64,000 nt of DNA from Mycobacterium sp. Root265. Its GTDB lineage: Bacteria > Actinomycetota > Actinomycetes > Mycobacteriales > Mycobacteriaceae. Below are positions 25,302 through 64,000 of this stretch, piece after piece (the first letter of the stretch is position 1; each line of letters starts with the position of its first letter). Location: NCBI RefSeq assembly GCF_001428895.1, contig NZ_LMJA01000010.1, positions 1-64,000 of the forward strand. The letters run 5' to 3'. Under the pieces are notes generated by a model. The model ran no database searches and was not told the DNA's origin. It saw only the letters and a list, made by a program, of their open reading frames with translations. Both the position numbers and the translations under genes were made by a program.

Positions 25302-26609
25302 TCAGTACTGCCCGCAGTTCGGCGCCGTCGGCACCCCGTTGAACCGGTCGGCGACCCACTGCAAGGCAGGTTCACCGTCGACCGCCATCGGCAGCGCGTG
25401 GTTGATCACCAGCTTGTTGAAGATCGGCGGACCCTCGTTGGTGCGGAACTCGATGTCGCTGCCCTTGGCGCACCAGTCCTTGCCGAGTTGCACCACCGGC
25501 GCGTAGGGCACCAGCGGGTCATAGCGGTTGCTGTTGAGCAGCACCGGGGCATTGGGTTTCAGCGTGCCGAGCTTTTGCAGATCGAAGATCCCGCGGAACT
25601 GCGGGTCGTTCAACAGCTCCGGGATGGGATGGTTGAAGTAGGGCTGCAGGTGCCGGAACATGAACTTCGCGACCGTCTCCCCGACACACTGATCCCTGGT
25701 CTTGTCGACGAAGTCCATCCCGCGCGGGGTGAGCAGCGCCCGGATCTTGGGCGCGGCCTCCGGGTAGCCCTGCATGACGCTGTTGAGCGCGTAGCCGATC
25801 ACCCCGACCAGCGCACTGCCGTCGGCGTACGGGATCAGGTCGACAAGGTCGGCGGGCGGGGCACCGGCGTAGGTGCCGACGATGTTGAGTTCGGGGGCAT
25901 AGGCGACGGCCAACTCGGCGGCCGAGGCTGCCGCGCCGCCGCCCTGCGAGTAGCCCCAGAAGGCAACGGGCCCACCGGGTGTCAGCGAAGTGCCCGGCAA
26001 CTTGCCGGCGGCTCGCGCCGCGTCGAGCATGGCGTGTCCCTGGGACAGCCGGTTGACGTAGGTATGCGTCGTACCGATGGTGCCCAGACCCTCGTAGTCG
26101 GTCATCAGGACCGCAAACCCGCGGTTCACCATGGTGTTCACGAACCCGGACTCGTAGTTGACCATGATGTCCAAATATGGCGACCAGTGGATGCCCTGGT
26201 TGAACTGCCGCGACGGTGCGCACTGGTCGCCCTGCCCCTGCGTTCCGGGACCGAACACGATCAGCGGGCGCGGGCCCTGTCCCGGCCAGGCGTTGAACGG
26301 CTCGAAGTAGGTGCCGGTCACCACATTCGGATTGCCTCGGCCGTCCGTGCTGCGGTACATGACGCGCGTGCCAGTGGCATTGAGCCTGCCGACCTGACCG
26401 GACGGCTCGATCACCAGCCGGGACGGCTCGGTGCGGACGAGGTCGCCGGGCGGGACGTCCGGCAACGGATTCGGTGGTGTGTAGAAGGCGGTGTACTCGT
26501 CCTCGTTGTAGTACGGATACCAGTCGTCGGCGTGCGCCAAACCAGTTGTGAGACAACTGATGACAAACCCCAAAGACACCACGACGAACACAGCCCCGGC
26601 CCGAATCAC
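25302..26609 (-). CDS. secreted lipase of the LIP (secretory lipase) family
   Basis: 435 residues with a Sec signal peptide (cleavage likely after GLAHA, about residue 27). Alpha/beta-hydrolase of the fungal/actinobacterial secretory lipase type: oxyanion-side GPGTQGQGDQC, nucleophile GYSQGG (Ser about 205), acid in NSNRYDPLVPY, and His in KLVINHALPMAVD. Six or more cysteines in the mature chain fit an exported protein. Substrate unknown, probably acyl esters at the envelope. It stands alone, unlike the four paralogues at 54-64 kb, and has the signal-peptide rather than anchored form. Confidence 0.88.
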   Translation of the reverse strand: MIRAGAVFVVVSLGFVISCLTTGLAHADDWYPYYNEDEYTAFYTPPNPLPDVPPGDLVRTEPSRLVIEPSGQVGRLNATGTRVMYRSTDGRGNPNVVTGTYFEPFNAWPGQGPRPLIVFGPGTQGQGDQCAPSRQFNQGIHWSPYLDIMVNYESGFVNTMVNRGFAVLMTDYEGLGTIGTTHTYVNRLSQGHAMLDAARAAGKLPGTSLTPGGPVAFWGYSQGGGAAASAAELAVAYAPELNIVGTYAGAPPADLVDLIPYADGSALVGVIGYALNSVMQGYPEAAPKIRALLTPRGMDFVDKTRDQCVGETVAKFMFRHLQPYFNHPIPELLNDPQFRGIFDLQKLGTLKPNAPVLLNSNRYDPLVPYAPVVQLGKDWCAKGSDIEFRTNEGPPIFNKLVINHALPMAVDGEPALQWVADRFNGVPTAPNCGQY

Positions 26610-52325: not shown

Positions 52326-53036
52326 GTGTCCTTCGCTGATGCCACGATTGCGCGGCTTCCCCGCCCGATCCGGCCCTTCGCCGAGCGGCACCATGAGCTC
52401 ATCAAGTTCGCGCTCGTGGGCGCGACGACTTTCGTCATCGACTCCGCGATCTTCTACACGCTCAAGCTGACCGTCCTGGAGCCCAAGCCGGTGACGGCCA
52501 AGATCATCGCCGGCATCGTGGCGGTCATCGCGTCCTACATTCTCAACCGGGAATGGAGCTTCAAGGACCGCGGCGGCCGCGAACGCCACCATGAGGCGCT
52601 GCTGTTCTTCGGGGTCAGCGGCGTGGGCGTGGTGCTGGCCATGGCCCCGCTGTACTTCTCCAGCTACGTGCTGGGCCTGCGGGTGCCCGAGGTGTCGCTG
52701 ACGGTGGAGAACATCGCCGACTTCATCTCGGCCTACGTCATCGGCAACCTGCTGCAGATGGCCTTCCGGTTCTGGGCGTTCCGCCGCTGGGTGTTCCCCG
52801 ACGAGCACGCGCGCAACCCGGAGAAGGCCCTGGAGTCCACCCTCACCGCCGGCGGTATCGCCGAGGCCTTCGAGGACCATGCCGAGCACCACGGTCAGGT
52901 CGGTCAGAGCGCCGGGCGCGGCTTCGACGAGAACGGCGCCGGCGACGAGAACACCGTCACCCCGCTACGCCGACGGGTCCGCGACACCGATCAGCTCGGC
53001 GATTCCTCGGAGTCGAGGGTGTCGAAGACTTCGTGA
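52326..53036 (+). CDS. GtrA-family membrane protein
   Basis: 236 residues. Four hydrophobic helices between residues about 25 and 150 with the GtrA pattern (HELIKFALVGATTFVIDSAIF at the first helix, SYILNREWSFKDRGG, QMAFRFWAFRRWVF). GtrA proteins are thought to move polyprenyl-phosphate sugars across the membrane or serve wall arabinan synthesis. The hydrophilic C-terminal 80 residues (EHARNPEKALES, DHAEHHGQVGQ) are unusual in length. Its 3' end overlaps the convergent PH-domain gene by 46 bases. Confidence 0.9.
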   Translation: MSFADATIARLPRPIRPFAERHHELIKFALVGATTFVIDSAIFYTLKLTVLEPKPVTAKIIAGIVAVIASYILNREWSFKDRGGRERHHEALLFFGVSGVGVVLAMAPLYFSSYVLGLRVPEVSLTVENIADFISAYVIGNLLQMAFRFWAFRRWVFPDEHARNPEKALESTLTAGGIAEAFEDHAEHHGQVGQSAGRGFDENGAGDENTVTPLRRRVRDTDQLGDSSESRVSKTS

Positions 53037-53509
53037 TAGAGCAGGGAGTGCACCTGCTCGACGCGCGGAATGTCGTAGAACTCCAGCGGATCCTGTGACG
53101 CGGACTCGATGATCAGCGTGCCGGTGCGCAGCATCCGGTCCAGTACGCCGTGCTTGAACTCCACGCTGTTGATCCGGGCCAGCGGGATGTCGATGCCGCT
53201 ACGGGTCAGCAGGCCGTGGCGGAACATCACCCGGCGGTCGGTGATCACGAAATGCGTTGTCCACCACGTCAGGAACGGCCACAGGGTGAGCCATCCGACC
53301 AGCACCAACCAGAGCGCGGCGATGACACCGAAGATGATCCGCTTGGCATTGTCGTCCCAATCGGTCTGATTGACCCAGCCGGCACCGAACGCGGCCAGCG
53401 CACTGGCCAGCAGCAGCACCAACGCGGGAGCGAGCAGCCGCTTCCAGTGCGGGTGCCGGTGCAGCACCACATGCTCGTCTCTGGCCAGCACGTTCTCCGG
53501 ATAGCCCAC
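52991..53509 (-). CDS. bacterial PH-domain (DUF304/YdbS-like) membrane protein
   Basis: 172 residues. Two hydrophobic segments (about 25-45 and 58-82) precede a bPH2 domain with THFVITDRRVMFRHGLLTRSGIDIPLARINSVEFKHG and a final TLIIESASQDPLEFYDIPRVEQV. The role is unknown; membrane-associated PH domains of this type are widespread in actinobacteria (Rv3278c). The GTG at 53509 is 10 bases after the birA stop. The last 15 codons overlap the gtrA-like gene on the other strand. Confidence 0.87.
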   Translation of the reverse strand: MGYPENVLARDEHVVLHRHPHWKRLLAPALVLLLASALAAFGAGWVNQTDWDDNAKRIIFGVIAALWLVLVGWLTLWPFLTWWTTHFVITDRRVMFRHGLLTRSGIDIPLARINSVEFKHGVLDRMLRTGTLIIESASQDPLEFYDIPRVEQVHSLLYHEVFDTLDSEESPS

Positions 53510-53519
53510 GGTGTGGACT

Positions 53520-54323
53520 CTACTCAAACACCTCACCGGATAGCGGGCGCAAATGCACAATATCGGCCGCGGCGATGACCTCGGTGCCCGCGCCGGTGTC
53601 GATGCAGAGCCGGCCCTGCGCGTCGATGGCCGTGGCGGTGCCGACGATCTCCTTGCCGCCGGGCAGCAGTGCGCGCACCGGTCGGCCCAAGGTGGCGCTG
53701 CGTTCCCGATAATCCGTCAGCAGCGCCGCGGCCTCCCCGGCCTGCCAGGCCTGGATGCGGGTGGCCAGCTCGCCCAACAGGATCCGGGCGATCTCGGTGC
53801 GTTCGGCGCTCACCCCGAGTGCGCGCACCGAGGTGGCGTGGGGCTGGCCGATCTCCTCGGGCAGTACCGCGACATTCAGGCCGATGCCCAGCACCACGAC
53901 CGGTTTGGGCGAGGCCACCTCGGCAAGGATGCCTGCGATCTTGGCGCCGTCGATCAGGACGTCGTTGGGCCATTTCACGCCGGCCCGGATGCCGACGGCG
54001 GCCAGGGTGTCGGAGACCGCGACACCGGCCAGCAGTGGCAGCAGCCCCCACTGTTGTTCGTCGACGCCTTCGGCGGAGATGGCCACCGACACGATGACCA
54101 GTCCGCGCGGCACCGCGGTCCAGGCGCGTCCACCCCGTCCGCGCCCGGCGCTCTGATGCTCGGCGAGCAGCACCGCTCCGGCGATGTCCTCACCGGCGGC
54201 GGCCCGCGCGATCAGATCGGCGTTGGTCGATCCCGTCTCCTCGACGATGTCGAGGCGGTGCCACGGCGCGCGCAGATCGGCGCGCAGGGCGTCGACATCG
54301 AGGGGTAGCCGGTCAGCAGTCAT
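53520..54323 (-). CDS. birA: biotin--[acetyl-CoA-carboxylase] ligase
   Basis: 267 residues, class I biotin ligase lacking the DNA-binding N-terminus, so it is an enzyme only. VEETGSTNADLIARA, the biotinyl-AMP loop QSAGRGRGGRAW, VKWPNDVLIDGAKIAGILAE and VVVLGIGLNV are all present, plus the small C-terminal SH3-like domain. It biotinylates acyl-CoA carboxylases needed for lipid synthesis. ATG start; it overlaps the LIP esterase stop upstream by 11 bases. The accD5 gene that I remember beside birA in M. tuberculosis is not in this window. Confidence 0.96.
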   Translation of the reverse strand: MTADRLPLDVDALRADLRAPWHRLDIVEETGSTNADLIARAAAGEDIAGAVLLAEHQSAGRGRGGRAWTAVPRGLVIVSVAISAEGVDEQQWGLLPLLAGVAVSDTLAAVGIRAGVKWPNDVLIDGAKIAGILAEVASPKPVVVLGIGLNVAVLPEEIGQPHATSVRALGVSAERTEIARILLGELATRIQAWQAGEAAALLTDYRERSATLGRPVRALLPGGKEIVGTATAIDAQGRLCIDTGAGTEVIAAADIVHLRPLSGEVFE

Positions 54324-55578
54324 TTCGCACCGGCTGATCAGCGAAAATCTTTGTCATCCAATCCAGTTGGCTCGCGAGATCGACACCCGCGTGCCCCTTG
54401 TCCGGTTCGAACTGCACTGTCACCGTTCCTCCCATGGCGCATGCGCGCTGAATGGCCGCTGCCGTCCACGCCGCGTCGACAAGGGTATCGGCCCCGCCGT
54501 ACCAGACCGATAGCGGCGCCGACAGTGGGCGCTGCGGAAGTGCCCAGTCCCGCAGCAGCTGTCGCAACTGGTCGGCCGCGGCCACCGACTGCGGTGCGAC
54601 ATCGTGCTGGCGCAGATGTTCTGCGGCACTCTGCCGTTCGTAGATCTGCGGCGCCTGGCACGCGGTGATGACCGACCAGTACTGCGCGCCGGCCCCGGCC
54701 CGGAAGTCGTCACGGTTGAGTTCCGGATGAAGCCGCGCGAGCGATTCGACGATGACCGGCATGGCCAGCAGTTGGTCGGCGGTCAGTTCACCGCGCAGCG
54801 ACTTATCCGCGAAGCCACTCACGTCTGCGGCCGGCGCGGCCGCGACCGTCCCGAGCAGCTTCAGTTCGGGGGCGTACACCGAGGCCTGTTCGTTGGCGGC
54901 CCAGGTGGCCGCGCCGCCCTGCGAGTGGCCGAATCCCAGCCACTTGGTGGACACCTCGGGGAAGGTGTGGCGCAGCGCCCGCACGCTGTCGATCATGTTC
55001 AGCCCGGCGGTCCTGGCATCCAGGTACGGGTGAATCCCCTTGGCGCCCAGTCCTTGGTAATCGGGCACCGCCACCGCGAAACCGCGGTCGATGAACGGTG
55101 TCACGAAGGCCAGCGCGCCGAGCATGGTGTCCGACCGCGACGGGGCGCAGGGATTGTCGATGCCGACGGTGCCGTGGCCGATGGCCACGATGGGCCAGCC
55201 GCCCGGCGGCGGGGCGCTTTTGGGGGTGAACACCGAACCGGAGACCACGGTGGGCGCGCCGGTGTCACCGGATGTCGAGCGGTACAGCACCCGCGCCGCG
55301 CGCAGATCGCGGGCCTCCACCCGCCGGGTCACCCCGGGCATGGTGGTGGCCGTGACCAACGAGCCGGGTCCGGCGTCGGTGAGGTCGGCGGTGTCGATGG
55401 CGACGGGCGCTCCGCCCGAGGACGGGAAGCTGTTCAGGAATTCCAGACCCAGCGGCACGGCGAACGGCAATAGTGCACGGCCGAGCAGGATCTGGGCGAG
55501 GACGACGACGAAGATGGTGACGGCGACGGCGGTGCGTTTGAGCCAACGCGGCCTGTCGTTGCTCCGGGAAAGCCGCAC
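54313..55578 (-). CDS. membrane-anchored secretory-lipase (LIP) family esterase, copy 4
   Basis: 421 residues. One N-terminal membrane anchor (about 15-40), then an exported alpha/beta-hydrolase: GHGTVGIDNPCAPS near the oxyanion hole, nucleophile GHSQGG, Asp in YGGADTLVD, and His in PDKGHAGVD. It shares long blocks with the copy at 57993 (SLARLHPELNRDDFR, DSVRALRHTFP), so the two are recent paralogues. It follows the sugar-transferase gene by 58 bases and overlaps birA. An acyl esterase or transacylase acting outside the membrane is likely; substrate unknown. Confidence 0.85.
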   Translation of the reverse strand: MRLSRSNDRPRWLKRTAVAVTIFVVVLAQILLGRALLPFAVPLGLEFLNSFPSSGGAPVAIDTADLTDAGPGSLVTATTMPGVTRRVEARDLRAARVLYRSTSGDTGAPTVVSGSVFTPKSAPPPGGWPIVAIGHGTVGIDNPCAPSRSDTMLGALAFVTPFIDRGFAVAVPDYQGLGAKGIHPYLDARTAGLNMIDSVRALRHTFPEVSTKWLGFGHSQGGAATWAANEQASVYAPELKLLGTVAAAPAADVSGFADKSLRGELTADQLLAMPVIVESLARLHPELNRDDFRAGAGAQYWSVITACQAPQIYERQSAAEHLRQHDVAPQSVAAADQLRQLLRDWALPQRPLSAPLSVWYGGADTLVDAAWTAAAIQRACAMGGTVTVQFEPDKGHAGVDLASQLDWMTKIFADQPVRNDC

Positions 55579-55636
55579 GTCCCTACGCTACCGGACGTCC
55601 GTCACGGGACTGCGAAGCGAAAGCGACCCGGGTGGG

Positions 55637-57169
55637 TCAGTAGGCGCCGGTGCCGCCCAGCACGGTGCGCACGGTCTTGAGGGCGATCAGCAGATCACCG
55701 CTGATGGACCAGTTCTCGACGTAGGACAGATCCAGGCGCACCGAGTCGTCCCAGGACAGATCGGCGCGACCGCTGACCTGCCACAGGCCGGTGATACCCG
55801 GCAGCACCAGCAGACGGCGACGGACCTGGTCGGTGTAGGCATCGGCTTCGCACGGCAGCGGCGGGCGCGGGCCCACCACGCTCATGTCCTTGCGCAGCAC
55901 GTTGATGAACTGGGGCAGTTCGTCGATGCTGTAGCGGCGCAGGATCCGGCCCACCGCGGTCACCCGGGGGTCGCGGCGGATCTTGAACAGCACGCCGCCG
56001 TCCATCTCGTTCATGTCGGCCAGGCCGGCGACCAACTTGTCGGCGTTCTCCACCATGGTCCGCAGCTTGATCATCTGGAACGGCTTGCCGTCCAGGCCGA
56101 TGCGCTCGGACATGTAGAAGATCGAGCCACGGCTGGTGAGCTTGATCGCGATGGCGCTGACCAGCAGCAGCGGGAATGCGGCGGTGAGCACGGCGAGCGA
56201 GACGAAGATGTCGAAGGCGCGCTTCTGCACCTTCGTCGTGCCGCTGTACTGCGGCTTCTCGACGTGGATGAGGTTCAGACCGGCGACCGGGCGCATGGTC
56301 AGGCGCGGACCGGCCACATCGACCATGCCCGGTGAGACCACGAGGTCGACGCCGAGGCGATCGAGATCCCAGGACAGCTCGCGCACGCCCTCGGGGCCGA
56401 GGTGCTCGGTGGTGGTCAGTGCGACCGTGTCGGCGTTGGCCTTGGCGATCGCCTCTTCCACCTGATGCTCGTCGCCCAGGATCGGCAGTGGGCCGACGCC
56501 GGGCACGTCGAGCGTGCCGCCACCGACGCGGCCGGTGAGGCAGACACCCACGACCGAGTAGCCGTAACCCCAGGCGCGGTCGAGGGACTGGACCAGGCTG
56601 CGCACCGCGGCCGCGTTACCGACCGCCACCACAGCGTTGACGCACTGTCCGCGCTTGCGGTACCAGCCGAGGACCCGGCGGCAGGCGGCACGGCCCAGCA
56701 CCAGGAACACCAGACCGAGCGGGAAGGCCAGCGCCAGGTAGCCGCGCGCGTACTCCGGCCGGAAGATCATCAATGTGACGGCGACGACGCCGATGGTCGC
56801 CAGCGTGGCCGAGAGCACCCGTCGGTACTCCTCGATGCCGGCACCGACGATGCGCGGGGACCGGCTGCGGTAGGCCGTCAGCAAACCCAGCCAGATCAAG
56901 CCGAAGATCACCGACAGCAGGCCGAAGTACTTGGTGAGCGGATCGAAATCGGTAACTGGGCGCCCCAGGCGCACCATCTGGGCGCACGCCATGGCAGCGC
57001 CCACGACAACGACATCGGTGACCAACAGCGCCAACCCGTAGCGCCGCTGCCACTGCAGTCCGTCGTGGTCGCGGGCGGGCGCCGCGCTCACCAGAGCGAT
57101 CGGCGCTTCCGTCTCTCTCACCAACGTCACGTGCGCGTCCACCTTCGTTTGCTGCACCGGTCCAAGCAT
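55637..57169 (-). CDS. polyprenyl-phosphate sugar-1-phosphate transferase (WbaP/CpsE type)
   Basis: About 510 residues. Four N-terminal membrane helices (about 55-180), a Rossmann-like CoA-binding-type middle domain, one more helix, and the C-terminal bacterial sugar transferase domain with KRAFDIFVSLAVL, MIKLRTMVENAD, KIRRDPRVTAVGRILRRYSIDELPQFINVL and MSVVGPRPPLPCE, SGRADLSWDD, YVENWS. It loads the first sugar phosphate onto decaprenyl phosphate to start a polysaccharide repeat. The ATG at 57169 is used; the frame opens up to 57229, and neither has a good ribosome-binding site. Preceded by an 823-base gene-free region. Confidence 0.92.
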   Translation of the reverse strand: MLGPVQQTKVDAHVTLVRETEAPIALVSAAPARDHDGLQWQRRYGLALLVTDVVVVGAAMACAQMVRLGRPVTDFDPLTKYFGLLSVIFGLIWLGLLTAYRSRSPRIVGAGIEEYRRVLSATLATIGVVAVTLMIFRPEYARGYLALAFPLGLVFLVLGRAACRRVLGWYRKRGQCVNAVVAVGNAAAVRSLVQSLDRAWGYGYSVVGVCLTGRVGGGTLDVPGVGPLPILGDEHQVEEAIAKANADTVALTTTEHLGPEGVRELSWDLDRLGVDLVVSPGMVDVAGPRLTMRPVAGLNLIHVEKPQYSGTTKVQKRAFDIFVSLAVLTAAFPLLLVSAIAIKLTSRGSIFYMSERIGLDGKPFQMIKLRTMVENADKLVAGLADMNEMDGGVLFKIRRDPRVTAVGRILRRYSIDELPQFINVLRKDMSVVGPRPPLPCEADAYTDQVRRRLLVLPGITGLWQVSGRADLSWDDSVRLDLSYVENWSISGDLLIALKTVRTVLGGTGAY

Positions 57170-57992
57170 GCTGACTAAGACTATCGCTTTGTTTCCTGCT
57201 TCTTGCAACATTTCGGCCCAAATATCCACCCTTCGGCTGACGCCGGCGCAAATTCGCCGGTGGATATGATCTTGATTTGCCGGATCTGGCCGCGCGGGTG
57301 AGTCGGTAAAAACTGACGCCCGCGACGATTTGACCTGGTAATTAAGCCTAAGCCGAGTCTGTTAATCCCATGTACTCATGGGTTATCGCCGGGGTTGCCG
57401 ATGCGTTACACCTGAATCAAGATCTTCCGGCGCCCGGCGAGTCGGCCGAAGAGCCATTGCTGAAACTGCGCTTGCGTGCAAGGTTCCGACGTTTTATGGC
57501 TTAGCCGCGGCACACACCACCGGCAACCTGCCCAGACCTCCCGGCGATCGGCGACGGCCCGATGGGCATTCCGGTATGACGTTGCGAGAAGTCGCTGGCC
57601 GCCGGCACGGGAGTGCTTGCAATCGCGAACATGTCCTACCCGCCGTGACCAGCGGCCAAACGCCGGACCAGCCACGCAGACGGACCGGACCGTGCGAATG
57701 GCGTCGCGCACCATTGGCGCAGCGGCCCACCCACCTATTCACTTCGGCATCATCCGCCCCAATATGAATGGCACATTCGTGCCATTCCTCATTCGCCATT
57801 CCTCGAATAGCGAATCGCAGCGCTGCGAGGACACCGAATTGACAGTGCCTGACACATCGGTTTGCCGGGTAACAGGCACATCACGGCGACTTCGCTGCCG
57901 GGGTCCGGGGCAATGCCCCTGCCGGGCCGTAGGAGGGCGCCAGGAGGGAGTTCGCGCCGGTGCGGCGGCACGACCGGGTACCCGTAGCAGGA
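57170..57992. other. 823-base region without a supported gene
   Basis: Only short frames with no family signal. Near the sugar-transferase start it is AT-richer, with inverted repeats CCGGCG-CAAATT-CGCCGG (57243-57260) and CCCATG-TACT-CATGGG (57367-57382), both possible regulatory sites or leader hairpins. Near the LIP stop are GTGCCTG/CAGGCAC (57845-57879) and GGGGC-AAT-GCCCC (57907-57919), candidate terminators for the operon that ends at 57993. It thus separates two transcription units of the polysaccharide cluster. Confidence 0.5.
57907..57919 (-). terminator. small GC hairpin downstream of the LIP/acyltransferase operon
   Basis: GGGGC-AAT-GCCCC, 74 bases past the stop at 57993 in the direction of transcription. 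Short stem, so weak support. Confidence 0.3.
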
Positions 57993-59246
57993 CTAACCGC
58001 AGGCGGTGGCGGCGGCTTCACCTACGGGGCGCTCGATCGGCAGCCCCTCGAGCCGTTCGGCCAGCCAGCCCAGCTGGTCGGCGACCTCAAGGTCGCCGTG
58101 GCCCTTGTCGGGCTGGAAATCCCACGTCACCGTGCCGCCCAGCTCGCAGGCGCGGGCCAGCGCGTCCGTCGTCCAGCGCGGGTCGATGTACTCGTCCTCA
58201 CCGCCGTAGACGACCGACATGGGTGCGGCCAGCGGCTGCTGCGGCAATGCCCACTGTCGAAGATAGGCCCGCAACTGATCGGCGGCTTCCGGCGTCCGCG
58301 GCTTCACGTCATCGGATCCGAGTCGGTCGATCACGGCTTCCCGGGTGTGCACCGCATCGCCGGAACAGGCGATCAGGATGTCCCAGTTCTCGGCGGCGAC
58401 ACCGTGCCGGAAATCGTCCCGGTTGAGCTCGGGGTGCAGCCGGGCCAGCGATTCGACGACGAGGACCAGCGCCGCCACCTGCTCCTTGGTCAAGGTGCCG
58501 TCCACGGACTTGTCGACCAGCCCCGCGATATCGGCGACCGGCGCCAGCGCGAGCACCCCGCGCGGAGGCATCTCCGGGGAGTACGTCCCGGCCTGCTCCC
58601 CTACCGCCCAGGCCGCGCCACCGCCCTGCGAGCCCCCGAGTGCGGCCCACCTGTCCGAGACATCGGGGAAGGTGTGCCGTAACGCCCGCACCGAGTCGAT
58701 CATGTTCAGCCCGGCGGTCTTGGAATCCAGATAGGGATGGATTCCCGGTGATCCGAGTCCCTGGAAGTCGGCGAGGGCCACCGCGAAACCGAGCTCGGTC
58801 AACTTGACCACCCAATCGGTCAGCCCCAGCAGCGTCGCCGACATCGACGGGCCGCACGGCTCGTCGATGCCCAGGGTGCCGTGACCGAAGGCGACCACCG
58901 GCCATCCGCCGGCCGGGGCGCCCCCGCTGGGCGTGAACACCGCAGCGGACACCACCGTCGGCTCTCCGCTGTCGCCGTTGGTCGAGCGGTACACGACCCG
59001 GGCCGAGTTCAGGTCGGAGCCTTGCGGGCTGCGGCTGAATTCGGGCATCGTCATCGCACTGACCAGAGAGCCGGGGCCGCTGCCCGTCAGGTCGGCGCCC
59101 TCGATGGGTGTGGGCAGCACCGTCGCGGGCGGCTTAGTCGACAGACCCACCGTCTGGCGGGCGGCCGGGGACACCGCCAGCACCACCGCGGCAACCAGGA
59201 TCAGGACGGACAGCACAATGCCGGCCGGCAGCAGGTATCGGCGCAT
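57993..59246 (-). CDS. membrane-anchored secretory-lipase (LIP) family esterase, copy 3
   Basis: 417 residues, N-terminal anchor (about 5-27). Catalytic features: FGHGTLGIDEPCGPS, nucleophile GGSQGGG, Asp in YGGEDEYID, His in PDKGHGDLE. Closely related to the 54313 copy. The ATG at 59246 overlaps the acyltransferase stop (TGATG), so it is translated from the same message and probably acts on the same product. Last gene of the operon. Confidence 0.87.
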   Translation of the reverse strand: MRRYLLPAGIVLSVLILVAAVVLAVSPAARQTVGLSTKPPATVLPTPIEGADLTGSGPGSLVSAMTMPEFSRSPQGSDLNSARVVYRSTNGDSGEPTVVSAAVFTPSGGAPAGGWPVVAFGHGTLGIDEPCGPSMSATLLGLTDWVVKLTELGFAVALADFQGLGSPGIHPYLDSKTAGLNMIDSVRALRHTFPDVSDRWAALGGSQGGGAAWAVGEQAGTYSPEMPPRGVLALAPVADIAGLVDKSVDGTLTKEQVAALVLVVESLARLHPELNRDDFRHGVAAENWDILIACSGDAVHTREAVIDRLGSDDVKPRTPEAADQLRAYLRQWALPQQPLAAPMSVVYGGEDEYIDPRWTTDALARACELGGTVTWDFQPDKGHGDLEVADQLGWLAERLEGLPIERPVGEAAATACG

Positions 59247-60532
59247 CAACTCTTCCGGAACCGCTTGACGAGGCCCAGACCCGGGCGCTCCACGGCGTAG
59301 TAGGTGATGGTCGACAGCAGGATCGTCACGACGGCCACCACCGCAACATTACGGAACATGCCGCTCCAGGAGTCGCCGGCGGCCAAGTCGTAGCGGCCCA
59401 GCAGCAACAGCACCGGGTAATGCCACAGGTACACCGACAGCGAGATCATCCCGACGAAATAGAACGGTTTGAGGTCGAGGAACCGCGCGATCGGGGAATC
59501 CTTGCCGCGGGCCAACGGCAGGACGACGATCGCGATGAACACCGCGGAGACGAAACCGATTCCGGCAGTGGCGAATACGGTGCCCTTCACGGCGAGCACG
59601 AGTGCCACGGCGAAGGACACCAGCAGCAGCGGGAAACACAGGAAATGGATCCGCCTGGCCGCCGGGACGGAAATCACGCCCTGTTCGATCGCGACGAACA
59701 GGATCGCGGCGAACATCCCGTAGGCGAACAGGTCCGCGTTGGTGATGAAGCTGCGCATGAACACCGCAGCCCAGGTGGGTCCCCAGTTCTGCATCATGAC
59801 GGTGTCCGCGCCGGACGCGGTGAACACCAGCGGGGCGAACAGTCGGCCGATGACCCCGACCGCCAGCAGGATGGCCGGTGCCAGGCAGGCCAGCACCAGC
59901 GGCTTGACGTCGGTGCGCTTACGCAACGCGAAGAGCAGGAAGCCCAACAGCGGCAGCACCGCGTAGAACGCGATTTCCAGGGTCAGCGACCAGGACGGGC
60001 TGATACCGGTCTGCACGTAGTCGGGAATGTAGGTCTGCGTCAGCGTCAGATTCGCCAGCAGTTCCCAGGGATCGGTGATCATCCCGGTACCGGCGTCGGT
60101 CCCGTGCGGCTGGATCGCCGAATTCTGCACATACGCCACCTGCAGCACGAAATTGCAGATCAGGAAGATCGTCAGATATCCGGGGAAGACCCGGAAGAAC
60201 CGGTGCAGGGCGTACTGCTTGGTATCCGGCATGGCCGCCTTCGACCGGTCCTTGGTGAGGCGCCGGATATAGGGCAGGAACAGCAGGAAACCGCTGAGCA
60301 CGAAGAACAGGATGAGCGCCAGGCCGAGCACACCGAGGAAGGCCTTGTCGTGGGTGACCGGCGAATAGCTCAGCGCCACATGGCCCATCACCACCGCCAG
60401 ACAGCCCAACCCGCGGATGCCGTCGAGGCCGATGATCCTGGTGTGCGTCGGCGAACTGGCGAGCACCTGGGATTCGATGCCCGGCACACCGGAGGCCCCC
60501 GCGCCCCCGTGCGCCGCGTTGGTTTCTGTCAT
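59246..60532 (-). CDS. acyltransferase-3 (OafA/YrhL-like) membrane protein
   Basis: 428 residues with ten or more membrane helices. The acyltransferase-3 pattern is seen in RIIGLDGIRGLGCLAVVMGHVAL (with the His after the first helix), FFVLSGFLLFLPY, RFFRVFPGYL and SPSWSLTLEIAFYAVLPLL, ending SVYLWHYPVLLLL and YYAVERPGL. These proteins transfer acetyl, succinyl or longer acyl groups to sugars of surface polymers and glycolipids. ATG at 60532 preferred to an arginine-rich upstream extension. Neighbouring esterases suggest turnover of the same acyl groups. Confidence 0.93.
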   Translation of the reverse strand: MTETNAAHGGAGASGVPGIESQVLASSPTHTRIIGLDGIRGLGCLAVVMGHVALSYSPVTHDKAFLGVLGLALILFFVLSGFLLFLPYIRRLTKDRSKAAMPDTKQYALHRFFRVFPGYLTIFLICNFVLQVAYVQNSAIQPHGTDAGTGMITDPWELLANLTLTQTYIPDYVQTGISPSWSLTLEIAFYAVLPLLGFLLFALRKRTDVKPLVLACLAPAILLAVGVIGRLFAPLVFTASGADTVMMQNWGPTWAAVFMRSFITNADLFAYGMFAAILFVAIEQGVISVPAARRIHFLCFPLLLVSFAVALVLAVKGTVFATAGIGFVSAVFIAIVVLPLARGKDSPIARFLDLKPFYFVGMISLSVYLWHYPVLLLLGRYDLAAGDSWSGMFRNVAVVAVVTILLSTITYYAVERPGLGLVKRFRKS

Positions 60533-60575
60533 GAGCGTTCTCCGGTCGCGGTGGTCAGCGGCGTCGTCTCGACGA

Positions 60576-61835
60576 CTAGGTGGTCTTGAGGATCGACGGC
60601 CCGCCCTCGACCCCACACGTACTGTCCGCCGGTGCGTCGTCGAACCGCTTCATGATCCAGTCCAGCGACACGATGGGGTCGAAATCACCGTGTCCCCGGC
60701 CGCCAGCGATGAAGGATGCCACGGTGTCGCCCATCTCGCAGGCTCTTCGCACCGCTTCGGTGGTCCACGCCACCGGGACCACGTCATCGGCGTCCCCGTG
60801 CACCACGAACATCGGCGCGCTGGCCGGGGCGCGGGGCAGACCGCTCATCTGATTGAGGTACCCGCGCAACGTGTCGAGGGCCTCGGGGGTCGCGGGGCGC
60901 AGATCCTCCGGCGGAATCTGCTCGGCCACCGCGAGCCGGTCCTCGGTGGCGTCGGTGGAACACCCGGCGAGCAGATCCCACTTCTCTTCGACCAGGCCGC
61001 GCCGGTAATCGTCCAGCTTGAAACCGGGATGCGCATTCTGCAACGACGACAGGATGAGCACCATGGCGATCCGCTGCTGCGGGGACAGGATGCCCTCGGC
61101 GGCCATATCCGCAAGACCGGTGATGTCGGCCGCGGGCGACACGCTCACCGAGCCGATCAGCCGGGTGTCCTGCGCGCCGTAACCGGCGATCAATTCGTTG
61201 GCGGCCCAGGACGCCTGGCCGCCCTGGGACACCCCGAAGGCGACCCATCGCTCCGAGGAGTCCGGCACCAGCTTGCGGGCCGCACTGGCCGCGTCGACCA
61301 TGTTGTAGCCGGCCGTGGTGGCATCCAGATAGGGGTGGTAGCTGTCGATGGTGCCCAGCCCCTGGTAGTCCGGCACCACCATGACGTAGCCGAGGGTGAC
61401 CAGCGCGCGGACCGCCTCGGCCGCGCCCAGCAGGGTCGGTGACAGCGACGGCGCGCAGTCCGACAGCACGCCGGTGGTGCCGTGCCCGAACACGATGACG
61501 GGCCAGCCCCCCTCGGGCGGGGGGCCCGCCGGGGCGAACACGCTGCCCGACACGACCTGAGAGCTGCCGTCGACCCCGGAGGTCGAGTTGTAGGTGATGC
61601 GGGCGGCGACGGAGGTGACCCGCAGCAGCCGGCGGTCGATGGTGGGCAACCGGGTGGCGCTGACGAGCGCGCCCGGACCGGTGGCCGAATAGTCGGCGGG
61701 CAACTGGATTTCCGAGACCACCGCGGCCGACGGGCCGGGGTCGGGCTCCGAGCAGCCCGCGACCACCAGCGCGAGCGCCAGCAGCGAACTCGCCAGCGCC
61801 TTGCGGGTCGTCCTCGTCGAGATTGTGTGTGCCAT
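60576..61835 (-). CDS. LIP-family esterase, lipoprotein, copy 2
   Basis: 419 residues. Signal peptide with lipobox VVAGC (Cys about 28), so the enzyme is lipid-anchored outside the membrane. FGHGTTGVLSDCAPS, nucleophile GVSQGG, Asp in HGDADDVVP, His in GRGHGDFD. It is more distant from the anchored pair but has the same PAADITGLAD block before the cap. It starts 7 bases downstream of the chain-length gene stop. Confidence 0.87.
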   Translation of the reverse strand: MAHTISTRTTRKALASSLLALALVVAGCSEPDPGPSAAVVSEIQLPADYSATGPGALVSATRLPTIDRRLLRVTSVAARITYNSTSGVDGSSQVVSGSVFAPAGPPPEGGWPVIVFGHGTTGVLSDCAPSLSPTLLGAAEAVRALVTLGYVMVVPDYQGLGTIDSYHPYLDATTAGYNMVDAASAARKLVPDSSERWVAFGVSQGGQASWAANELIAGYGAQDTRLIGSVSVSPAADITGLADMAAEGILSPQQRIAMVLILSSLQNAHPGFKLDDYRRGLVEEKWDLLAGCSTDATEDRLAVAEQIPPEDLRPATPEALDTLRGYLNQMSGLPRAPASAPMFVVHGDADDVVPVAWTTEAVRRACEMGDTVASFIAGGRGHGDFDPIVSLDWIMKRFDDAPADSTCGVEGGPSILKTT

Positions 61836-61842
61836 CGAGCTC

Positions 61843-62589
61843 CTAAGACCTGGGGGGCTCGCCGCTGGACGACGTGTACGAGTTGGCGACCTGGCGGAGT
61901 TGGCCGCCGGTCAGCACCTCATCACGGGCCAGTCCCAACGCCAGCACCAGCACCAGGCTGAGGGCGAAGCCGACGCCGGTGGCCACCAGCAGCGTGTTCG
62001 TCATATCGGGTTGGACCTCGTGGGCGACGGTCGCCGGATCGACGGCCACGAGTTCGGCCACCGGCCCGGTGTACTGGATCGGGTCGGTGGGTTTGGCCTC
62101 GACGTATTCCAGCTCGCCCGACATCTTCATCAGCACGGAGGCGAGCGTGTTGATGGTGTCGATGGTGGTCTGCGGATCGGTGCCCGTCACCCCCACCCGC
62201 AGCAGTGCCGACGATGGCCTGCCGAACCGCGACAAGCCGTAGGGCTCCCAGGTTGCGGTGACCTTGGCCGCGAGTTCGCTTGGCGTCAGCGGCAATCCGA
62301 GTTGTTCGATGGTCCGTTCGCTGATCACCGAGGACTGCGCCAGCGACACGTAGGTGGACATCCGGCTGTTGGCCCCGATGCCGCCGGCGTAGGCCGAATA
62401 GGTGCCGGGGTCACCGGCGACCTGCGCGAACAGCAGCACCGACGCCGTGTAACTGCGTTCGGCGGTGAGCTTCTGGATGCCGAACGCCGCGGCGGGCGCC
62501 AGCAGCGTGGCCACCAGGATGATGACCCAGCCCCGGGCAGCGATCCTCAGGTAGTCCCGTGCCCGTGGCACGTCGACCGGCGCCCTCAA
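61843..62589 (-). CDS. Wzz/YveK-like polysaccharide chain-length (co-polymerase) protein
   Basis: About 248 residues: an N-terminal helix (about 15-40, RIAARGWVIILVATLLAPAAAF), an outer domain (SYTASVLLFAQVAG, TYVSLAQSSVISERTIEQLGL) and a C-terminal helix (about 208-230). This matches the Wzz/KpsE/YveK membrane-adaptor layout without a kinase domain. It sets chain length or gates export of a polysaccharide. The TTG at 62589 overlaps the upstream esterase stop (TTGA); a GTG 18 bases further in is the alternative. Confidence 0.85.
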   Translation of the reverse strand: MRAPVDVPRARDYLRIAARGWVIILVATLLAPAAAFGIQKLTAERSYTASVLLFAQVAGDPGTYSAYAGGIGANSRMSTYVSLAQSSVISERTIEQLGLPLTPSELAAKVTATWEPYGLSRFGRPSSALLRVGVTGTDPQTTIDTINTLASVLMKMSGELEYVEAKPTDPIQYTGPVAELVAVDPATVAHEVQPDMTNTLLVATGVGFALSLVLVLALGLARDEVLTGGQLRQVANSYTSSSGEPPRS

Positions 62590-63836
62590 TTTCTGCTCAG
62601 GCAATCGTTGGGCGGCGGGTCGGCGCCGTCGAGGCGGTCCATCAGCCAGGGCAGGGTGAACCCGCTGTCCAGGTCGGCGTGGCCCTTGCCCGGGCCCTTG
62701 CGGATCTCGATGTAGCTGCCCATCGCGCAGGCCCGGTCCAGTGCCTTCTCGAACCACGTCTCGTCGACCAGCATGTCCTGGGTGCCGTAGCCGACGACCA
62801 TCGGTGTGGTGTTGGGGGCTTGTGGCACAGCGATTTCCGCGAGCCGCTCACGCAACCAGACGACGTCCTCGTAGGTCGCAGGCCGCAGGTCCTCGTTGGT
62901 CATCAGCCCGCGCACCCTGGCGATGTCGTCGAAGTTGGGCGGGATGCAGTCCAGGAGTTGATCCCAGTTCTCGGCGGTGGTGCCGCGCCGGTAGTTGTCC
63001 AGATTCATCTCCGGGTTGAACCACTTCAGCGACTGCAGCGCGAACACGAGCGTCACCCGCTGATCGGCGGTCAGCGTGCCGTTCCAGGCGGCGTCGGCCA
63101 ACCCGGACATGTCGGCGGCCGGCGCCATCGCGACGGTGCCGAGCAGATTGAGTCCCTGACCGTAGGTGGTGGCCTGTTCGGCGGCCGCCCAGACCGCCAG
63201 GCCGCCGGCGGAGTGACCGTAGGACAGCCAGCGGTCGCTGGTCTCGGCGCCGACCCGACGGGCGGCACGGACCGAGTCGATCACGTTGTAGCCGTAGGTC
63301 TTGGCGTTGAGGAACGGGTGCTGGTAGCCCTCGACCCCGGCACCCTGGAAGTCCGAGACGGTGACCAGGAAGCCGGACCGGACGAAGACCGACATCGTCC
63401 ACGCGTTCAACGGCAGGCTGCCGTAGAGGCTGCTCGCGCATTTGTTCAGCACACCCTTGGTGCCCTGGCCGAAGGCCAGGATGGGCCAGCCGCCCTTGGG
63501 CGGGTCGCCCGGCGGGATCGCCACCGCACCCGAGACCTCGGTGGGCTGCCCGTCCACCCCGGAGGTGGATCGGTAGACCACGCGCATGTAGGTGGCGTCG
63601 TCCTGGTTGAGCAGTTCACTGCCGCTCATCGGTTCGACGGACACCAGCGAGCCCGGCCCGTCGTCGTTCATATCCGGCGGTGGCAGCCGCGGTTTGCCGT
63701 CGAAGGGCGGGGTGAAGGTCTTGATCGCGACAGTGTCCGAGCCCGGAGGGGGCGCGGGGGCCTCCGCCGGTGCGCACGAGGTCACCAGCACGACGGTCAC
63801 GAACAGGACCGCCGCACCACGAATCAGACTCGGCAC
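62586..63836 (-). CDS. LIP-family esterase, lipoprotein, copy 1
   Basis: 416 residues from the GTG at 63836. Lipobox LVTSC (Cys about 20). FGQGTKGVLNKCASS, nucleophile GHSAGG (Ala where the other three copies have Gln), Asp in YGTQDMLVD, His in GKGHADLD. Shares AENWD and PAADMSGLAD blocks with the other copies. An arginine-rich upstream extension of the frame overlaps the preceding gene's end and is not used. Coupled to the chain-length gene by TTGA. Confidence 0.87.
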   Translation of the reverse strand: MPSLIRGAAVLFVTVVLVTSCAPAEAPAPPPGSDTVAIKTFTPPFDGKPRLPPPDMNDDGPGSLVSVEPMSGSELLNQDDATYMRVVYRSTSGVDGQPTEVSGAVAIPPGDPPKGGWPILAFGQGTKGVLNKCASSLYGSLPLNAWTMSVFVRSGFLVTVSDFQGAGVEGYQHPFLNAKTYGYNVIDSVRAARRVGAETSDRWLSYGHSAGGLAVWAAAEQATTYGQGLNLLGTVAMAPAADMSGLADAAWNGTLTADQRVTLVFALQSLKWFNPEMNLDNYRRGTTAENWDQLLDCIPPNFDDIARVRGLMTNEDLRPATYEDVVWLRERLAEIAVPQAPNTTPMVVGYGTQDMLVDETWFEKALDRACAMGSYIEIRKGPGKGHADLDSGFTLPWLMDRLDGADPPPNDCLSRN

Positions 63837-63840
63837 GCCG

Positions 63841-63999
63841 TCATCCCGAGGTGTGCGATGAGGTCTGCGACCTCGCGGTGCGGCTGTCGGTTTCTTCCTC
63901 GGCAGCGGCCGCGGAGTTGCCGGAGGCGTGGGCACCGCCCTGGTGCTTGCGGTCCGAAGAGAGCTCACGACGGTGTCCCGGCTCGCAGGTGGCGACCAC
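63841..63999 (-). CDS. C-terminal end of an unidentified upstream gene (partial)
   Basis: A minus-strand frame enters from the right edge and ends at TGA 63843-63841. The 52 visible residues are hydrophilic and low in complexity (SSDRKHQGGAHASGN, AAAAEEETDSRTARS), a disordered tail. Function cannot be told. It ends 4 bases before the esterase start, so it is probably part of the same operon and, by the pattern here, another polysaccharide gene. Confidence 0.6.
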   Translation of the reverse strand: MVATCEPGHRRELSSDRKHQGGAHASGNSAAAAEEETDSRTARSQTSSHTSG

Positions 64000-64000
64000 G

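Follow-up and report, generated by a model that had tools for sequence, protein, structure and literature searches.

The window, a stretch of 64,000 nucleotides taken from the start of contig NZ_LMJA01000010.1 (C10) of Mycobacterium sp. Root265, runs at its far end into a polysaccharide gene cluster in which late polysaccharide genes alternate with four genes for anchored proteins of the secretory lipase family PF03583 (LIP1 to LIP4). Comparison with relatives indicated that the alternation itself is less telling than two rules: a LIP stands behind a co-polymerase that lacks its kinase lysine, and it is this LIP that loses catalysis. Positions below are those of the 64,000-nucleotide stretch. 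Read on the minus strand and from the upstream side, the order is the 3′ end of BYK, LIP1, Wzz, LIP2, AT3, LIP3, a gap of ~0.8 kb, WbaP, LIP4 and birA, with the following features:

63841..64000, running on to C10:65337, minus strand: 3′ end of BYK, a co-polymerase joining Wzz to a bacterial tyrosine kinase (BY-kinase)-like domain; PF02706 and AAA_31 above cut-off
62586..63836, minus strand: LIP1, lipoprotein-like PF03583 protein with a GTG start; Ser/Asp/His kept, GQGT in place of GHGT
61843..62589, minus strand: Wzz-like chain-length protein without a kinase domain; start at TTG 62589 or GTG 62571
60576..61835, minus strand: LIP2, lipoprotein-like PF03583 protein, from profile and motif reading
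59246..60532, minus strand: AT3, membrane acyltransferase; PF01757 86.4 bits against a cut-off of 31
57993..59246, minus strand: LIP3, PF03583 protein with an N-terminal hydrophobic anchor; profile and structure model m66c1adaa837c
57529..57882, minus strand: decayed remnant of a SASA (PF03629) carbohydrate esterase gene, found by tblastn
55637..57157, minus strand: WbaP-type polyprenyl-phosphate sugar-1-phosphate transferase, the priming enzyme; Bac_transf 214.7 bits, TIGR03025 above cut-off; earlier in-frame starts extend it to 57229
54313..55578, minus strand: LIP4, PF03583 protein with an N-terminal hydrophobic anchor; 11-base overlap with birA
53520..54323, minus strand: birA, the housekeeping gene bordering the cluster; TIGR00121 above cut-off

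A first-pass annotation of this DNA had described four LIP genes, each with an export anchor (two lipoboxes, two N-terminal helices) and intact Ser/Asp/His positions, alternating with late polysaccharide genes. All of the open reading frames are present, and the PF03583 scores of 53 (LIP1), 58 (LIP2), 39.5 (LIP3) and 77.3 bits (LIP4) exceed the Pfam cut-off of 23. The catalytic triad is kept in all four proteins; LIP1 and LIP2 carry a lipobox-like motif, whereas the N-terminus of LIP3 and of LIP4 has one hydrophobic stretch. The annotation gave the overlaps correctly (TTGA at LIP1/Wzz, TGATG at AT3/LIP3), but its short gaps do not extend to the ~0.8 kb between LIP3 and the sugar transferase gene, and therefore the WbaP-LIP4 pair may be a separate unit. 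The first gene of the series, which had been left without a name, is now identified as the 3′ end of BYK (L015:3841-5337, equivalent to C10:63841-65337). The separate Wzz scores 19.5 bits with PF02706, below the cut-off of 25.5, and is 33% identical to BYK over 150 amino acids. No Rfam match was found in window positions 53000-64000. The broader proposal is supported in that the genes form a cluster for a polysaccharide, include one for an acyltransferase and come with their own LIPs bearing export signals.

The cluster continues for ~8 kb past the window end with a divergent Wzy gene, three GT4 glycosyltransferase genes, a hexapeptide acetyltransferase gene and a gene for a flippase-like protein, and the whole locus sits between accD5 (named by look) and birA. 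Wzy matches PF04932 (O-antigen ligase family, Wzy_C; 36.8 bits against 31.7), a family that covers both polymerases and ligases, and has no NCBIfam match. The best PF01943 score of the flippase-like protein, from four relatives, is 17.2 bits against a cut-off of 28.2. The features of the Wzx/Wzy pathway found here are a priming transferase (Bac_transf, TIGR03025), Wzy (PF04932) and a Wzz-type protein (BYK, PF02706). Known Wzx/Wzy clusters for exopolysaccharide (EPS) or capsule share the priming transferase, glycosyltransferases, Wzy, Wzz, a BY-kinase-like co-polymerase and acyltransferases; they differ in that here three to four, and up to seven, lipase-fold proteins stand among the late genes and the co-polymerase has no kinase lysine and mostly no C-terminal tyrosines. 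Between the EPS genes and accD5 lie genes for a KshA-like Rieske oxygenase, an FAD-binding enzyme (KstD-like by look) and an AMP-ligase (L015:12484-16878, minus strand); these are kept in L020, and none was seen at that place in L023, L025 and L039.

LIP2, LIP3 and LIP4 are 39-40% identical to LIP1, and the His of the GHGT motif is replaced by Gln in all 15 LIP1 proteins of the window LIP1's clade, its own included. A structure model predicts an alpha/beta-hydrolase fold of the Candida antarctica lipase A (CAL-A) type. The secretory lipases of PF03583, such as CAL-A and Xanthomonas LipA, share with the window LIPs the profile, the predicted fold and the triad; they differ in their low identity (15-18%) and in that the LIPs have N-terminal anchors, occur as several paralogues in one glycan cluster and, for LIP1, have no triad in many relatives.

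For a single locus, strict alternation is expected in 2 of the 70 type orders of four plus four genes placed at random, so that one alternating locus is weak evidence. Relatives were therefore compared using a profile of the window LIPs, run on 60 genomes of the genus and then 200 of the order, and an AT3 profile, run on 397 genomes of the genus and then 401 of the family. A codon-usage script picked out the genes of each locus, and BLAST against the proteins of the window organism gave them their names. What computation shows is the gene order and how far it is conserved, how the LIPs group by position, which of them keep the triad, the missing kinase lysine and the predicted fold. AT3 matched in 55/397 genomes of the genus and in 52/401 of the family, the latter spread over 5/31 genera. 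From 70 AT3 places listed in the genus, 60 were fetched as new stretches, 5 lay in stretches already included and 5 were left out; 38 of these stretches hold a cluster with LIPs, 21 a LIP-free other context and one (L110) a second cluster type. From the family, 20 of 54 places were taken, picked towards genera other than the window's.

Five genera were found to share the order BYK-LIP1-Wzz-LIP2-AT3-LIP3, among them named Mycolicibacterium and Rhodococcus (Leaf278, ruber IEGM 1391 and yunnanensis among the matches listed). In the window's genus this core lies mostly at the birA site; in Rhodococcus and the genera g4, g74 and g76 it lies away from birA, as far as the stretches reach. A few loci of g4, g74 and g76 have no called Wzz, or have an intervening GH39-like gene or a second LIP. 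Counts were taken over 60 loci with AT3, BYK and a LIP within one stretch; the window itself, clusters split over two stretches, and L111, L113 and L114 (copies of L053, L079 and L100) were left out, near-identical species were kept, and L115-L117 may duplicate other genomes. A LIP comes directly after BYK in 60/60 cases, after Wzz in 54/54, after AT3 in 49/59 and after WbaP in 24/51, compared with 0/155 for the Wzy, Wzx-like, glycosyltransferase and hexapeptide acetyltransferase genes. In the loci examined, LIPs therefore lie behind the same genes in five genera rather than scattered and unlinked, and it is this recurrence that lifts the arrangement above chance.

Strict alternation, the central claim of the first-pass annotation, recurs, but as one arrangement among others. 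Clusters carry three to four LIPs, up to seven, and some have tandem LIPs. In a second cluster type two or three consecutive LIPs come after BYK, in an arm divergent from the one with Wzy and AT3; this type was seen at L211:115-5303, L212, L213 and L214, with the LIP beside BYK catalytically lost in the last two. Absence of LIPs from L110, L206 and L207, where BYK lay at the edge of the first stretch, and a single LIP in L210, were ruled out, since wider stretches show BYK and then two or three LIPs.

The LIPs sort by the gene they follow. In a tree of 111 LIPs all 27 behind BYK fall in one group (SH-aLRT 100), and 25 of the 27 behind Wzz fall in the LIP2 group (SH-aLRT 85); the two exceptions are a LIP3 type in the rearranged G035 and, in L042, a LIP1 behind a short BYK piece. 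LIP3 and LIP4 form one group (99) with the LIP4 group nested inside it (99), so that three LIPs are old, and LIP4, which the window's genus has at WbaP/birA, was copied from LIP3 later. The export signal also tracks position, with a lipobox in 54/61 LIP1 and 49/60 LIP2 proteins, and a hydrophobic N-terminus without a lipobox in 46/50 LIP3 and 25/25 LIP4 proteins. These position-specific groups and signals fit the earlier suggestion that each LIP acts at a different stage.

The gene preceding LIP1 alters this picture. BY-kinases are characterized by a Walker A lysine and a C-terminal tyrosine cluster. BYK scores 37.2 bits with PF02706 (cut-off 25.5), and its kinase domain aligns to the CapA1/CapB1 chain (E 4.6e-24), the CapAB kinases being its nearest solved relatives by sequence. 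It differs from the co-polymerases CapAB and Wzc in both features. The window organism's BYK has Arg at the Walker A Lys position, and Lys is found in 0/63 BYK proteins beside LIP1 (Arg 55, Ala 5, Thr 3); its last 45 residues contain no Tyr, as in 60/63 of the proteins, with one Tyr in the other 3/63. The Walker A column is also without Lys in L110, L206, L207 and L210, where the alignment is loose, and Lys is present in BYK of L180, another rhodococcal cluster. In every locus where the next gene is visible, the lysine-less co-polymerase is followed by a LIP. BYK thus looks like a dead tyrosine kinase, and we predict no or poor autokinase activity; against this, it still narrowly passes TIGR01007 (111 bits against 108.05). 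In other systems chain length is usually set by a phosphorylation cycle of the co-polymerase, and a kinase that looks dead suggests that chain length here is probably not set in this way.

Catalytic residues were also lost at this position. The triad is kept in 56/56 LIP2 proteins behind Wzz, 49/50 LIP3 proteins behind AT3 (the other ends at a contig edge) and 25/25 LIP4 proteins behind WbaP; the one loss seen at these positions is in a second LIP2 copy in L102. Behind BYK, the triad is intact in 39 and lost in 21 LIP1 proteins of the main set, and overall lost in 24/66 once the window's own LIP1, L211 and L212 (intact) and L213, L214 (= L210) and L215 (= L040) (lost) are included. This count leaves out the LIP1 of L199, whose end reads into another frame, and two intact LIP1 proteins behind a short piece. 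In a LIP1 tree built without the catalytic columns, the losses comprise a 20-row clade of the window's genus and, as a separate event, two g76 rows; the frame-shifted L199 is a third change. L213 and L214, of the second cluster type, stand outside this tree, and the loss in each rests on one loose alignment. The triad-less genes have omega values of 0.06-0.19 in 7 pairs, all from the 20-row clade, indicating purifying selection, and so they seem to be kept for a non-catalytic role. Taken together, the LIP following the lysine-less co-polymerase is the LIP that tends to lose catalysis. The view of the LIPs as esterases at every position is accordingly not supported for the BYK-adjacent protein, which need not act by catalysis.

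A further esterase may once have belonged to the locus. Other species have a SASA (PF03629) esterase gene between LIP3 and WbaP, frequently accompanied by a DUF218 gene, and tblastn with one relative matched the remnant in the window gap (26% over 129 amino acids). When 39 relatives, including two copies, served as queries, this small search gave matches at E 1e-3 or better in 3 of 17 gaps, and a reversed-protein control gave 0 matches. The ancestor of the clade therefore probably had one more esterase gene at this place.

From these features we infer export, an acylated polymer, an enzymatic role for the LIPs and a partnership between LIP1 and the co-polymerase. With moderate confidence we propose an EPS locus whose O-acylated polymer is worked on by tethered LIPs, with LIP1 serving the co-polymerase partly as a partner without catalysis. 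A Wzx/Wzy-type polymer would be O-acylated by AT3 and the hexapeptide acetyltransferase, and the membrane-tethered LIPs would then act on it outside the cytoplasmic membrane. LIP2 to LIP4, as enzymes similar to CAL-A and LipA, would take off or shift acyl groups on polymer that is lipid-linked or still growing, and each would be kept next to the step that it may serve (chain-length protein, acyltransferase, priming transferase). LIP1 would work with the co-polymerase and in some lineages has become non-catalytic, probably as a glycan- or acyl-binding partner.

Several observations weigh against this proposal. The activity of the LIPs, their substrate and the acylated polymer are predictions, and the flippase-like protein scores under every cut-off, as the separate Wzz does under its own. 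The cluster is patchy, and some of the 55 AT3-positive genomes have AT3 only in a LIP-free context. The loci came from LIP and AT3 searches, a LIP was required in the 60, and many of the loci are closely related; the counts therefore lack independence. LIP4 is closer to birA than to WbaP and absent in some loci, and tandem LIPs and BYK-LIP-LIP(-LIP) arms depart from alternation. Together with the 24/51 for WbaP, these irregularities mean that position may be inherited order rather than function.

Such an order would descend from an ancestral three-LIP locus that gained a fourth by duplication, its interleaving meaningless beyond membership of one regulon. The nesting of LIP4 within LIP3, and the second cluster type with its LIPs in a row and neither Wzz nor AT3 between them, are consistent with this. 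However, gene order is held in five genera at protein identities down to ~30-50%, and in other genera the arrangement also occurs outside the accD5-birA site while other cluster genes move, flip or vanish. We consider inherited order alone possible, though unlikely.

The LIPs could instead be transacylases that load the polymer with fatty acyl groups taken from a donor in the envelope, giving a fatty-acid EPS as in Rhodococcus. In the accessible part of a 2026 review, Rhodococcus EPS contains ester-linked palmitic and stearic acid, and fucose in several cases (PMC12786566); Rhodococcus loci carry the cluster, accompanied by GDP-mannose-dehydratase-like genes (identified through a locus gene whose own name was given by look). 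The predicted CAL-A fold also fits, since CAL-A transesterifies in water, and so does its homologue, the Starmerella bombicola lactone esterase, which acts on a glycolipid and serves that one pathway (PMC11210130, as far as that text was available). The likeness has limits on both sides: the Starmerella enzyme is fungal and acts on a low-molecular glycolipid, and the term 'gene cluster' is absent from the Rhodococcus review. Moreover, none of the chemically studied Rhodococcus strains could be tied to the cluster, and the description given for the Xanthomonas relative is that of a short-chain lipase/esterase. R. ruber IEGM 1391, with the cluster in its record, had a low yield of EPS carbohydrate, at 2.3 mg per litre against a median of 8.9 (available part of PMC12298843). 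We hypothesize that the cluster product in Rhodococcus is a fatty-acid-containing EPS; transacylation by the LIPs themselves we judge improbable on this evidence.

A bolder and still more doubtful extension would have lipase-fold lipoproteins replace the kinase switch: LIP1, in part a pseudoenzyme, would read acyl groups that LIP2 to LIP4 write as transacylases, acylation would set chain length and anchor a fatty-acylated capsule in the mycomembrane, and the same machinery would make the fatty-acid EPS of Rhodococcus. The idea that the LIPs serve as general secreted lipases, or as esterases for scavenging nutrients, and merely happen to be located in the cluster is very improbable, because, although related single LIPs occur elsewhere beside pta-ackA-like genes (by look) and a PF00756-type esterase, or a Na/H exchanger, a LIP follows every BYK and Wzz counted and anchor type follows position.

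Returning to the tethered LIPs acting on an O-acylated EPS, the locus consists of known families in a real, conserved but patchy arrangement, and is apparently an undescribed variant of the Wzx/Wzy-type locus. A search of titles and abstract beginnings that left subscription journals mostly outside found no publication reporting lipase genes within an EPS cluster of mycobacteria or rhodococci. The accessible part of the Rhodococcus review describes ester-bound fatty acids and leaves the attachment genes unnamed (PMC12786566), and this locus supplies candidates. It also offers a comparative set over five genera and a natural experiment, one protein position with and without catalytic residues beside a dead-looking kinase. 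Should acylation or chain length prove to be set by the LIPs, direct genetic tests of surface properties and biofilm would become possible, and lipase-fold proteins would join the parts list of polysaccharide export.

Relatives of these proteins also occur outside the cluster. The genome contains 8 LIP matches (E <= 0.001), 4 of them in this cluster, and a fifth LIP gene in the window (25302-26540, minus strand; PF03583 181.7 bits) adjoins an M20 peptidase gene. A tblastn search of plasmids with LIP2 gave 73 records, none reaching 80% query cover and all below 60% identity. A LIP gene ends a second kind of polysaccharide cluster in L028 (with a PF01943 flippase), L043 and L046 (likened by look). 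Single LIPs outside clusters have lost the triad in L029 (8777-9988), L030, L031, L032, L034, L035 and L050; six of these seven adjoin a PF00756-type esterase relative, forming pairs of pseudoenzyme and esterase, and some lie near pta-ackA-like genes (by look). Acetate release as a LIP function, considered because of the latter neighbours, was dropped, as those LIPs have no triad and the neighbours were named by look. AT3 relatives are found in a LIP-free operon, probably of the Mce type (by look), in L075, L076, L084, L088 and others.

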